The translations under genes were made by a program, and so were the position numbers. From a virus, in IMG/VR virus record IMGVR_UViG_3300044619_001023, positions 1 through 27,876 of that record: a stretch of DNA of 27,876 bases. One strand, given 5' to 3'. This document shows, in pieces, positions 1,642-10,269 of the stretch. Each line of letters opens with the position of its first letter. The stretch's first letter is position 1. The notes beneath the pieces were generated by a model, which was given only the letters and a program-made list of their open reading frames with translations, was not told the DNA's origin and made no database searches.

Positions 1642-2187
1642 ATGAAAAAATACACAATAGAAGAGCTTAAAGCTCAATTTCAAAAACACAACTACAGATG
1701 GTTTGACTTTCACTTTGTAGGGATAAGATCTACAGCTAATTTACCAAACCAGTTTGATGACTTGTTTGGCGTTATAGCAGGTGATAAAGTAGAATGGTTT
1801 ACTTGCACTACAAACCCGGGTACACACTGGTTAAAGAACTTGCTTAATCCAAAAGGTGCAGCATTACTTAAAGCTAATCAGTATGTAGATACTTGGCAAA
1901 TAGGTATGCATCAAGGTAAATATGAAGCTTTTTGTCAAGCTAAACCTGTTGATGTATTCCGTGATAAAAACCTTGATGACAAAGCTGAGGAAACAGCTAC
2001 TATAGACAGAGGTTTGTTTGGTATAAATATCCATAGAGCTAATGAAAAGTTTGCTTCTAAACTTATAGACAAGTGGTCAGCTGGTTGCCAAGTTTTAAAT
2101 AATCCTGCAGACTTTGCTAAAGTTTTAGCTGCAGGAAAAGCTACAAAAAATAAGTTTTTTACTTATACACTTTTAAAAGAGTTCTAA
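1642..2187 (+). CDS. putative cell-wall endolysin, L,D-transpeptidase-like
   Basis: A 181-aa soluble protein without a signal peptide or membrane segment. The C-terminal half contains GINIHRANEKFASKLID followed by WSAGCQVL. A His, about 16 residues, then S-x-G-C matches the catalytic His/Cys layout of YkuD-type L,D-transpeptidase folds (usually S-H-G-C; here S-A-G-C). Proteins of this type are common in lysis regions of Bacteroidota phages and prophages, where they probably act on peptidoglycan as endolysins. It lies directly before a membrane-anchored PAS protein and a small holin-like gene, which supports a lysis role. An alternative is a peptidase of another fold with a similar His/Cys pair. 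The family call rests on motif spacing only. Confidence 0.6.
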   Translation: MKKYTIEELKAQFQKHNYRWFDFHFVGIRSTANLPNQFDDLFGVIAGDKVEWFTCTTNPGTHWLKNLLNPKGAALLKANQYVDTWQIGMHQGKYEAFCQAKPVDVFRDKNLDDKAEETATIDRGLFGINIHRANEKFASKLIDKWSAGCQVLNNPADFAKVLAAGKATKNKFFTYTLLKEF

Positions 2188-2193
2188 TAAAAA

Positions 2194-3303
2194 ATGAAAA
2201 ACCTATCTAAAGAAGAGTTATTAAGCAGGCTTGAAGCAATAAACAGAAGCAATGCTATAATATACTTTGACCTAACTGGAATTATAACAGGGGTTAATGA
2301 CATCTTTCTAGAAGCAATGGGTTATGGTAAAGGTAATCATCAAGAGATCATTGGTAAACACCATAGTATTTTTGTGTGTGAAGATTACTCAAGATCACTT
2401 GAATATGAAAAGTTTTGGGATATACTAAGAAGTGGCAAGTATTATCAAGGAGAGTTTGAAAGAAGAAAAAAAGATGGAAAGCTTATTAATCTTCAAGCAA
2501 CTTATAATCCTATTTTTGATGAGGATAATAAGATCACCAAGATAATGAAGATTGCTACTGATATTAGTTTAATTGTCAATAGCAAGAAACAAATAGATGC
2601 AATTAACAGAAGTACAGCACTTATTAGCTTTAATACTGAAGGCTTTATAACAGATGTTAATTCTATATTTTTAGAAACAATGGGCTTTAAAGCCAATGAA
2701 AAAAATAAAGTTATTGGTAAACATCACAGTATTTTTGTTAGTTATGAGTATTCAAAGTCTGATGAGTATGTTAAGTTTTGGGAGAATTTAAGAAAGGGCA
2801 AGTACTTTGATGGAATATTTGAAAGAAAAAAAGTGGATGGTTCTATTGTTTACTTACAAGCATCTTACAACCCTGTATTAGATAGCAAAGGGAATATTAC
2901 TGATGTAGTTAAGATTGCAACTAATGTTACTGAGTCTGTAAACAACAAGAAAAAAATAGATGAGCTCACAAAGACTTTAACAGTAGAGTTAGAAAATTCT
3001 CAAAAACTTAAAAATGCAATAGAGATAGAAAAGGATGTAGCTTTAAATGACTTAGATGTGATGATGAAAAAGAGTCAAAGTGAACTAATAAAAATAATTG
3101 TTAGAGTTGCATTGGCTGTTATAGTTGGAGTTGGATTAGTAACTACAACATTGTATTGGGTAGCTATAATGACAAAGCAGGATACACAAATTATTGGCTC
3201 AACTTGGAGCAATATGTTTAGTGTTTTATTGACAAATGCTTTTTCTATTGTAGGAACAATTATGGGAATTAAATATGCTACACAAGAAAGTAATAAAAAA
3301 TAA
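2194..3303 (+). CDS. tandem-PAS sensor with C-terminal holin-like membrane domain
   Basis: A 369-aa protein with four parts. PAS 1 (about 12-127) and PAS 2 (about 134-248) are duplicates: both keep AINRS, an IIGKHHSIFV/VIGKHHSIFV segment, FW-x2-LR-x-GKY, FER, and QATYNP/QASYNP before a D/N-x-T end. This signature is typical of PAS domains of bacterial chemoreceptor and BdlA-type sensors. A charged coiled coil (about 250-297) leads to two membrane segments (about 299-322 and 341-360) and a short basic tail. No kinase, HAMP, chemoreceptor or cyclic-di-GMP output domain is present. It sits between a probable endolysin and a small holin-like gene, 6 and 19 nt away, so the membrane part may be the output. 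Function is inferred: a sensor that tunes lysis timing, or a modulator of host signalling. Confidence 0.85.
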   Translation: MKNLSKEELLSRLEAINRSNAIIYFDLTGIITGVNDIFLEAMGYGKGNHQEIIGKHHSIFVCEDYSRSLEYEKFWDILRSGKYYQGEFERRKKDGKLINLQATYNPIFDEDNKITKIMKIATDISLIVNSKKQIDAINRSTALISFNTEGFITDVNSIFLETMGFKANEKNKVIGKHHSIFVSYEYSKSDEYVKFWENLRKGKYFDGIFERKKVDGSIVYLQASYNPVLDSKGNITDVVKIATNVTESVNNKKKIDELTKTLTVELENSQKLKNAIEIEKDVALNDLDVMMKKSQSELIKIIVRVALAVIVGVGLVTTTLYWVAIMTKQDTQIIGSTWSNMFSVLLTNAFSIVGTIMGIKYATQESNKK

Positions 3304-3322: not shown

Positions 3323-3577
3323 ATGAAACAGTTTTGGACAATGTTTAATGACAACAATAATATCAATGAAAAAGCAGTAGTTGGTTTCATAGCTTTTATA
3401 GTAATGATTATCTTTGCTATTGTAGATATAGGCACTGGTATAGCTAATAAACCTTTACTAGTTAATGAGTTTATTTTTAATTCATTTGAAGTTATAACTA
3501 TAGCATGTTTTGGTATTGCCTCAGTAGACAAATGGATTAATAAAAAACACAATACAGAAGAAGATCAACCCCAATAA
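3323..3577 (+). CDS. small holin-like membrane protein
   Basis: An 84-aa protein with two predicted membrane segments (about residues 17-37 and 48-68) and a charged C-terminal tail (DKWINKKHNTEEDQPQ). Size, topology and position after an endolysin candidate fit a class II holin. The second segment and tail (FIFNSFEVITIACFGI then NKK) resemble the C-terminus of the preceding PAS protein in layout: N-x-F, a hydrophobic stretch, GI, and NKK near the end. It may be a holin, an antiholin, or a partner of the PAS protein. Holins have little sequence signature, so the call rests on topology and context. Confidence 0.55.
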   Translation: MKQFWTMFNDNNNINEKAVVGFIAFIVMIIFAIVDIGTGIANKPLLVNEFIFNSFEVITIACFGIASVDKWINKKHNTEEDQPQ

Positions 3578-3589
3578 ACTTAATATATT

Positions 3590-3676
3590 ATGTCAATAGG
3601 TAATACAAAAGATCAAGGTAATAAGGGTAACAATTTTCCCTATCAGCTTAGAACTCTACAATTATTAAGTTCTATC
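3590..3676 (+). repeat. docking-peptide coding repeat, copy 2
   Basis: This is the second copy of the 29-codon block described at 38-124. The DNA differs at many third positions and at Leu and Ser codons, while the peptide is 25/29 identical. Confidence 0.85.
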
Positions 3677-4915
3677 AATGATGGTATTGCTGCCTTACCA
3701 GGAGTAGATTATGAAACAAGAACTACTACATACCAAGCTGTTTGTACAATTTGTGGTCCAGGTTATTCTACAGGAGATATCATAGTAAGATATGATATTA
3801 TAGATGTAGCTACCTCAACATTAGCTGCAGAAATGTGGTTTAATCAAACTTTACAAACTACTATTACTCCACCACCAGCACCTGGAGATATTACACCAAT
3901 ATCGTCTCCTAGTGGAGTAACGGTACTAAATGGTCCAGCAGGTGCAGCAGTAAATATCCAAGATGGTGGTAACTCTATAACTGTAGATGATGGTGGTACA
4001 CCACTTAATGTTCAAGGAACAGTTGCTGTTAATCTTAGAGATGGATCAGGTATTCCTATTAGTAGTACAGGTGCATCATTAGATGTAAATGTAACCAGTC
4101 CAATATCAGTAAGTGTAATTTTAAATCAATCTACAAGTAGTGTTCAAGTTTATGGATTTGATGGTACAAATAATCAACCAATAGCAACAGATGCTTCAGG
4201 TAATTTACAAGTAGATATTTTATCTATACCTACTGTAGATGTTTCTGGATCAAGTGTTACAGTTAGTGGTACAGTAACTACTGTTCCATCTGGAACACAA
4301 GATGTAAATATTGTTAGTTCAGTAATATTAGATGTATCAGGTTCAAATGTATTAGTTACAGGAACTGTTGCTGTTACACAAGATCTTACATCAAATCCTT
4401 GGATTGTAAGTGGAACAGTTGGAGCAACTCAATCAGGTACTTGGACAATAGATAGTATTACAAATCCTGTTGTAGTAACTGCTTCTGGTCTAGATATAAG
4501 ACAATTAGATTTTTTACTCGACTCTGTAAATGTTAGTGGTTCTAATGTAAATGCTGTTGTAACAGCTAGTGCTTTAGATATCAGATCTTTAACATTTGTA
4601 ACAGATTCAGTAGATGTTAGCAACTCAACTAATGTTGGTGTTACTAATCCAAACTTAGATGCTCAATTATCTACATTAGCAACAGAAGCTACTTTATTAA
4701 ATATTGAAGATAATGTAACATCTAAAATAGATAGAATTAGAGGTGCTGCAGATTATACTAGAGTATTTACATATTATGGTGTAACAAATAATGTTGCAAC
4801 TATTGTGCACACTGGTACAACTAATATAGCTCCTGAAACATTAACAGAAACATTTACTTATCAAAATAACTTAATTGATGGTTCTAATGTAGTAAGTATT
4901 ATTTATTCATTATAA
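3590..4915 (+). CDS. tail-fibre protein with docking peptide and beta repeats
   Basis: A 441-aa fibre-like protein. Residues 1-29 repeat the docking peptide of the protein at 38. A short domain with CTICGPGYSTGDIIVRYDI follows (about 47-65), then a Pro-rich linker (PPPAPGD). The middle is a run of degenerate beta repeats based on VDVSGSxVxVxGTV and TQSGTW. Two clearer copies of TAS(G/A)LDIR-x-L-x-F-x-x-DSV(N/D)VS lie close together about two thirds along. Such Val/Ser/Thr/Gly-rich repeats are common in trimeric phage fibres. The C-terminal ~80 residues look like a small globular domain. No chaperone or enzymatic motif is visible. It probably attaches to the same site as the protein at 38, either as a second fibre or as an alternative one. 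Confidence 0.7.
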   Translation: MSIGNTKDQGNKGNNFPYQLRTLQLLSSINDGIAALPGVDYETRTTTYQAVCTICGPGYSTGDIIVRYDIIDVATSTLAAEMWFNQTLQTTITPPPAPGDITPISSPSGVTVLNGPAGAAVNIQDGGNSITVDDGGTPLNVQGTVAVNLRDGSGIPISSTGASLDVNVTSPISVSVILNQSTSSVQVYGFDGTNNQPIATDASGNLQVDILSIPTVDVSGSSVTVSGTVTTVPSGTQDVNIVSSVILDVSGSNVLVTGTVAVTQDLTSNPWIVSGTVGATQSGTWTIDSITNPVVVTASGLDIRQLDFLLDSVNVSGSNVNAVVTASALDIRSLTFVTDSVDVSNSTNVGVTNPNLDAQLSTLATEATLLNIEDNVTSKIDRIRGAADYTRVFTYYGVTNNVATIVHTGTTNIAPETLTETFTYQNNLIDGSNVVSIIYSL

Positions 4916-9728: not shown

Positions 9729-10034
9729 ATGCATATGACATTGGAATTAGCAGAAACTATTATGGGTATAGCAGGTGGACTAATAGGAATCCTACTCTTA
9801 ATATTAGGATACTTTTTAAAGATAATCCACGGTGATACCAAAAAAGCAATAGAAGAAGTTGGTAAAAACAAAGGTAGAATAGAGCTAGTAGAACTACAGC
9901 TTAACAGTGATGTAAAAAGATTAGAACAGACTACCCAGTTAGAACTAAGAACACTAGCACAAACAGTGACCAAGCTTTCAGCAAGTGTTGAGCAACTAGT
10001 TCAGATTCAATTACAAGCAGCAGTAAAACACTAA
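9729..10034 (+). CDS. membrane-anchored coiled-coil protein, lysis accessory candidate
   Basis: A 101-aa protein with one N-terminal membrane segment (about residues 8-31, AGGLIGILLLILGYFLKII) and a long coiled coil (about 36-98). No Cys or enzymatic motif is visible. The architecture fits a spanin-like, holin-accessory or XhlA-type lysis protein. The following gene, one base away, is holin-like and shares its transcription unit. A second ATG at 9735 could be the true start; the choice changes only two residues. Function is inferred from topology and neighbour. Confidence 0.5.
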   Translation: MHMTLELAETIMGIAGGLIGILLLILGYFLKIIHGDTKKAIEEVGKNKGRIELVELQLNSDVKRLEQTTQLELRTLAQTVTKLSASVEQLVQIQLQAAVKH

Positions 10035-10035
10035 T

Positions 10036-10269
10036 ATGAAACTAAAAGAAAAATATTGGGCTCCAACTCCTAAGAAATGGAGAAAGATTGGTGATGCTAT
10101 CTTAGCTACCGGGACTTTTATAACAGCAGGTGCTCTATTAGAGTATGATAAGATGAAAGAAATCTTTACAGCTAAAGAGGTAAAAATAATTATTGCTGTG
10201 GCTTTTCTACTAGGTGTAGCCGGCAAATTTATCACAAACTTTTTTACAGAAGATAAGAAAGAAGAATAA
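10036..10269 (+). CDS. putative holin
   Basis: A 77-aa protein with a basic N-terminus (MKLKEKYWAPTPKKWRKIGD), two membrane segments (about 19-37 and 49-66), the phrase GVAGKFITNFF, and an acidic/basic tail. This two-segment form with a Trp/Lys-rich start is common among short phage proteins annotated as holins in Bacteroidota phages. It ends 25 nt before a strong terminator. It is the second holin candidate of the window, the other being at 3323, so one may be an antiholin or act in a different membrane process. Confidence 0.55.
   Translation: MKLKEKYWAPTPKKWRKIGDAILATGTFITAGALLEYDKMKEIFTAKEVKIIIAVAFLLGVAGKFITNFFTEDKKEE

Follow-up and report, generated by a model that had tools for sequence, protein, structure and literature searches.

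The window, meaning the whole stretch of 27,876 nt (27.9 kb) analysed here, is a fragment of a crAss-like phage, based upon a Crass_capsid match (1.5e-30) and matches to portal and terminase PHROGs. The phage from which the gene described below derives is aquatic. The genes and features discussed are:

1642..2187, plus strand: endolysin-like protein, 181 aa (PHROG 3000; PHROG 33083, endolysin)
2194..3303, plus strand: PAS-PAS-coiled coil-2TM protein, 369 aa (Pfam, AlphaFold2, hydropathy)
2251..2562, plus strand: PAS domain 1, about residues 20-123 (Pfam PAS_3, AlphaFold2 strands and helices)
2614..2925, plus strand: PAS domain 2, about residues 141-244 (Pfam, AlphaFold2; 53% identity with PAS domain 1)
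2929..3084, plus strand: long helix or coiled-coil linker, about residues 246-297 (AlphaFold2 helix 246-327)
3097..3174, plus strand: transmembrane segment TM1, about residues 302-327 (AlphaFold2, hydropathy, alignment)
3184..3282, plus strand: TQIIGSTWSNMFSVLLTNAFSIVGTIMGIKYAT, short loop and TM2, residues 331-363 (invariant among PAS-fused relatives)
3323..3577, plus strand: 84-aa two-TM protein, holin candidate (hydropathy, gene neighbourhood)

The reading frame of the 369-aa protein starts 6 nt after the stop of the endolysin-like gene and is followed, after a further 19 nt, by the gene for the 84-aa protein. Pfam detects PAS_3 twice (whole-protein E-value 3.3e-23), with PAS_9 and PAS also over the cut-off, and Foldseek relates the protein to MmoS (E-value 8.2e-16). 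The two PAS domains are 53% identical across 119 aa. An AlphaFold2 model (mean pLDDT 81) comprises PAS, PAS, a helix spanning residues 246-327, and a second helix at 332-364, while hydropathy indicates two TM segments in this protein and two in its 84-aa neighbour. The first-pass annotation had proposed duplicated PAS domains, a coiled coil and two C-terminal TM segments, encoded between an endolysin-like gene and a small two-TM gene, and both architecture and location are borne out. The PAS structures of MmoS, Aer, and NifL, all flavin-binding, share a tryptophan that in alignments is replaced by Tyr84 and Phe205, so flavin binding is unsupported; other PAS ligands, such as heme, are possible.

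The upstream neighbour matches PHROG 3000 (3.5e-35) and endolysin PHROG 33083 (2.7e-19), yielded no Pfam family match, and has relatives in Bacteroides and crAss-like phages. Its HxxN...SAGC motif suggests a YkuD-like fold. The 84-aa protein matched no family in profile searches of Pfam, PHROG, and NCBIfam. The lysis genes are flanked by reading frames at 38-1630 and 3590-4915 with near-identical starts, MS[LI]GNTKDQGNKGNNFPYQLR, as if an N-terminal part had been duplicated. At 6 kb from the PAS gene, 9729-10034 and 10036-10269 encode small membrane proteins resembling TM88/TM79, the genes for which adjoin the PAS gene upstream in crAss-like relatives (e.g., L073).

A scan of IMG/VR returned 163 relatives of the 369-aa protein, the best 80 of which are 83-98% identical, ruling out chance or artefact as the source of the reading frame. 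Contigs of these relatives are incomplete fragments, and their genes were called mechanically. In whole-record searches, the PAS-hairpin gene was accompanied by a crAss-type capsid on some contigs (L002, L017, L073, L074, L078, and, in single-PAS form, L222) and by a T4-type Gp23 capsid on others (L052, L059, L063, L066, L288); the gene is therefore common to unrelated tailed-phage lineages. The coiled-coil and hairpin region, the 84-aa partner, and the receiver introduced below had no match in a phage collection of 50,697 records. Scans of genome contigs for the whole protein and for the aligned hairpin, using strict patterns that may miss distant relatives, found none in cellular genomes, and a cellular origin of the gene is not supported by these scans. 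A stretch of a human faecal phage scaffold that carries no annotation (MT836939.1; L305 920-1627) is 41% identical to the PAS pair along residues 13-250, and the hairpin does not match there. Two 10-kb unannotated records of Listeria phage LM 4-14-1 (OR848229.1, OR848218.1) match the PAS part at 32%; the origin of these records appears doubtful.

The C-terminal hairpin is highly conserved in its second segment. Residues 331-360 are unchanged in 62 distinct PAS-fused proteins, and synonymous codon differences at identical residues peak over the same stretch (0.40-0.42 versus 0.23-0.39 elsewhere in these 62 proteins), which rules out conservation at the nucleotide level. Because the scan patterns that fetched this set excluded TM2, its invariance is not a search artefact. 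TM1 is variable apart from one conserved set of residues (I302, V303, A306, L307, I310, G312-G314, T317, T318). Among a wider set of 184 distinct hairpins, mean column identity was 0.91 for TM2 and 0.74 for TM1, the TM2 value being biased because part of TM2 had served as a search pattern. One face of TM2 is made up of N, S, T, and G residues, with a moment reached by 1% of shuffles (p about 0.01). Such a one-sided polar helix would fit either the lining of a pore or tight helix packing.

Single-PAS proteins (about 248 aa) bear the same hairpin, as do PAS-less proteins (about 180-228 aa) that combine a small head (motif LEGN) with a long coiled coil. In the first sets of PAS-less loci, a 145-aa receiver gene lies directly upstream in 41 of 42 cases and a histidine kinase comes next in 38 of 38; in a more divergent set, the receiver is within five genes at 81 of 88 loci. 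Pfam identifies Response_reg in the receiver (1.3e-8) and HATPase_c in the kinase (1.9e-14). The H, N, G1, and G2 boxes are conserved at 97% or more in 37 kinases, and the receiver active-site residues (DD, D, S/T, K) in 36 of 36 receivers, and on these residues the split form is assigned as a putative two-component system. Sensor regions of the kinases vary, consisting of GAF and PAS, PAS alone, or an N-terminal region without a Pfam-detected PAS.

The fused and split forms are partitioned among loci. A receiver lies within four genes of PAS-fused forms at 0 of 93 loci and is found in none of 12 PAS-fused records (up to 272 kb, possibly fragments), and it is present in both two-component records. 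The fused PAS domains reach 56% identity with those of the kinases, and in a tree the fused forms make up one clade (75/76, support 0.996). In the window gene, a phage two-component system and its membrane effector appear to be fused into one component; on the simplest reading, the sensor would have been joined directly to the effector, making kinase and receiver unnecessary. Since the hairpin is the only component common to both forms, it is the likely effector, and with the invariance of TM2 this lends support to the earlier proposal that the membrane part of the protein is its output. Alternatively, the order of kinase, receiver, and hairpin genes might reflect a receptor complex in which the hairpin is not the effector.

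Linkage to lysis genes was scored as a lysin or holin-like gene no more than four genes away on the same strand, with controls at least nine genes away on the same contigs. Lysin and holin clusters were defined from the neighbours first and named by profiles afterwards. A lysis gene is near 66 of 70 PAS-fused loci (controls 3/124), 24 of 30 two-component loci from the first sets (controls 2/128), and 26 of 62 divergent two-component loci (control genes 0/30). A holin-like gene specifically is near 50 of the 70 PAS-fused loci, as called with a simple longest-ORF gene caller that sometimes chose an antisense ORF over the 84-aa gene (e.g., L067, L003). At least four kinds of lysin adjoin the gene (PG-binding/YkuD-like of PHROG 3000, PG-binding/GH19, M15_3, and GH24), and the PAS-fused gene can precede or follow the lysin. 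In most two-component cassettes from the first sets, the hairpin gene immediately precedes the lysin. Holin-like partners belong to the 84-aa family, the membrane protein that most often accompanies the PAS gene, to PF05105, or to PF23987; ten two-component cassettes with a lysin have the hairpin protein as their sole small TM protein within four genes.

The setting in a lysis cassette thus recurs in other phages. The first-pass annotation had counted homologues outside lysis cassettes, with another partner, as evidence against its reading. The PAS-less form answers to this in part: its partners are a kinase and receiver, and 36 of the 62 divergent loci lack any recognised lysin or holin in the four-gene range (several of these lie beside structural or other genes), while the PAS-fused form stays close to lysis genes.

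Because the hairpin gene is linked to lysis genes, control of lysis timing is the best reading of the locus. From architecture, conservation, and linkage we infer, with moderate confidence, that the 369-aa protein works as a sensor-gated switch in the membrane and determines when the host lyses. The cytoplasmic PAS pair would read some state of the host cell, perhaps through a bound ligand, the long helix would pass the resulting change on to the membrane, and the two-TM hairpin, with its invariant one-sided polar TM2, would act there as effector. Known holins occur in many of the cassettes, so the module need not be required for the hole. About two thirds of the weight we give to the switch goes to a hairpin that triggers or restrains the holin of the cassette, and about one third to a hairpin that forms the lesion itself. 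In the split version, comprising a kinase, a stand-alone receiver, and the coiled-coil hairpin protein, the phosphorylated receiver may signal through the helix to the hairpin. We put forward more tentatively, at slightly under even chances, the broader hypothesis of phage-borne lysis signalling in which one hairpin, driven either by fused PAS domains or by a phage kinase and receiver, opens a pore or releases a holin.

Direct formation of a hole or ion channel by oligomers of the hairpin, as a ligand-gated holin or pinholin, is a sub-case of the switch that we regard as unlikely. Class II holins have two TM segments and a lysine-rich C-terminus, and the hairpin protein resembles them in both respects. 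It also has an endolysin neighbour, a lysin lying within four genes in 63 of 70 cases, and the N/S/T/G face of TM2, the position before the lysin in most two-component cassettes of the first sets, and the ten cassettes with no other small TM protein close by all suit a holin. However, many cassettes also carry PF05105, PF23987, or the 84-aa family, the module matches no holin family in Pfam, PHROG, or NCBIfam, and its homology to the 84-aa protein is not supported (hhalign probability 0.7%). A pinhole by itself would not release the endolysin in the window, for which no signal anchor is evident. The earlier suggestion that the protein itself is the holin is not supported, given these co-occurring holins, and since many divergent loci stand apart from lysis genes as well, a sensor-holin is only partly supported.

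A phage membrane signalling module with a job other than lysis, such as taking over the host, excluding superinfection, or controlling a host membrane protein, is possible, although we place it on the unlikely side; its position would then reflect the tendency of phages to insert accessory genes into the lysis region. We retain this reading because of the 36 divergent loci without a lysis gene and because binding to a conserved host protein could underlie the invariance of TM2, which would fit its constancy across phages with differing holins and lysins. The sharing of the gene between crAss-like and Gp23-type phages also agrees with it. Against it stand the linkage of the PAS-fused form to several unrelated lysin types, with the gene before or after the lysin, and the enrichment that persists in the divergent set. 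That the hairpin merely tethers a PAS dimer to the membrane is very improbable. Two TM helices without a recognised fold are what a tether might look like, and when folds were compared, the PAS-less form matched only generic helical hairpins such as DgkA, MscS, and FadA, none of them prominent. Membrane anchors tolerate substitution, however, whereas TM2 is invariant just where synonymous sites vary most, and proteins with another head domain use the same hairpin. We reject a plain anchor, which the first-pass annotation had named as evidence against its own view, on the former ground.

Known systems resemble parts of this module. The T4 antiholins RI and RIII and the ICP1 proteins TeaA and ArrA act in antiholin-based lysis inhibition; for RI, the signal is believed to be superinfection, perceived in the periplasm (PMC8385771, PMC7182436). 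These are the closest systems in function: as in our proposal, lysis is timed at the membrane by a phage protein that responds to a cellular condition. No PAS, kinase, or receiver is described in those systems. MmoS, Aer, NifL, DosP, and FixL share the PAS fold, in tandem in MmoS, DosP, and FixL, but feed kinases, transcription factors, chemoreceptors, or enzymes, whereas in the 369-aa protein the PAS pair leads into a coiled coil and TM hairpin. The split form has the HATPase_c kinase, Response_reg domain, and usual conserved residues of bacterial two-component systems with a stand-alone receiver, but it is phage-encoded and tied to a coiled-coil, two-TM protein without a database family. Unlike class II holins, the module either carries a sensory N-terminal region of 245 aa or is partnered by a kinase. 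The Rec domain of jumbo phages is tied to NAD systems and is said never to occur with histidine kinases, and is for these reasons a different thing (PMC7824862).

Lysis timing by environmental sensing has been described for few phages, namely the T-even phages and ICP1. We know of no described phage system that times lysis by PAS or kinase sensing of the cell. Literature searches on PAS with holins or lysis, on crAss-like phages with PAS, and on phage kinases and receivers, covering few subscription papers and preprints, returned no description, and a link of PAS, kinase, or receiver to phage lysis appears new as far as this literature and general knowledge reach. In several phage lineages, a single conserved membrane effector appears to be connected, either in cis or in trans, to ordinary bacterial signalling parts. 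If this is true, the module would allow the reading of cell state by phages to be tested directly, would provide fused and split forms for comparison as a natural genetic experiment, and would add a new family of membrane effectors.

Other small genes accompany these cassettes. One encodes a 202-aa protein that looks GAF-like and has a TM segment at its N-terminus (L332 10438-11046; a cluster of 17 loci, nothing over the Pfam cut-off). In many two-component cassettes this gene follows the endolysin at a distance of a few genes, and in L033 and L057 it adjoins the PAS gene. At many divergent loci, tiny membrane proteins of 62 and 52 aa (L486 5111-5299, L427 4850-5008) are encoded directly before the kinase.
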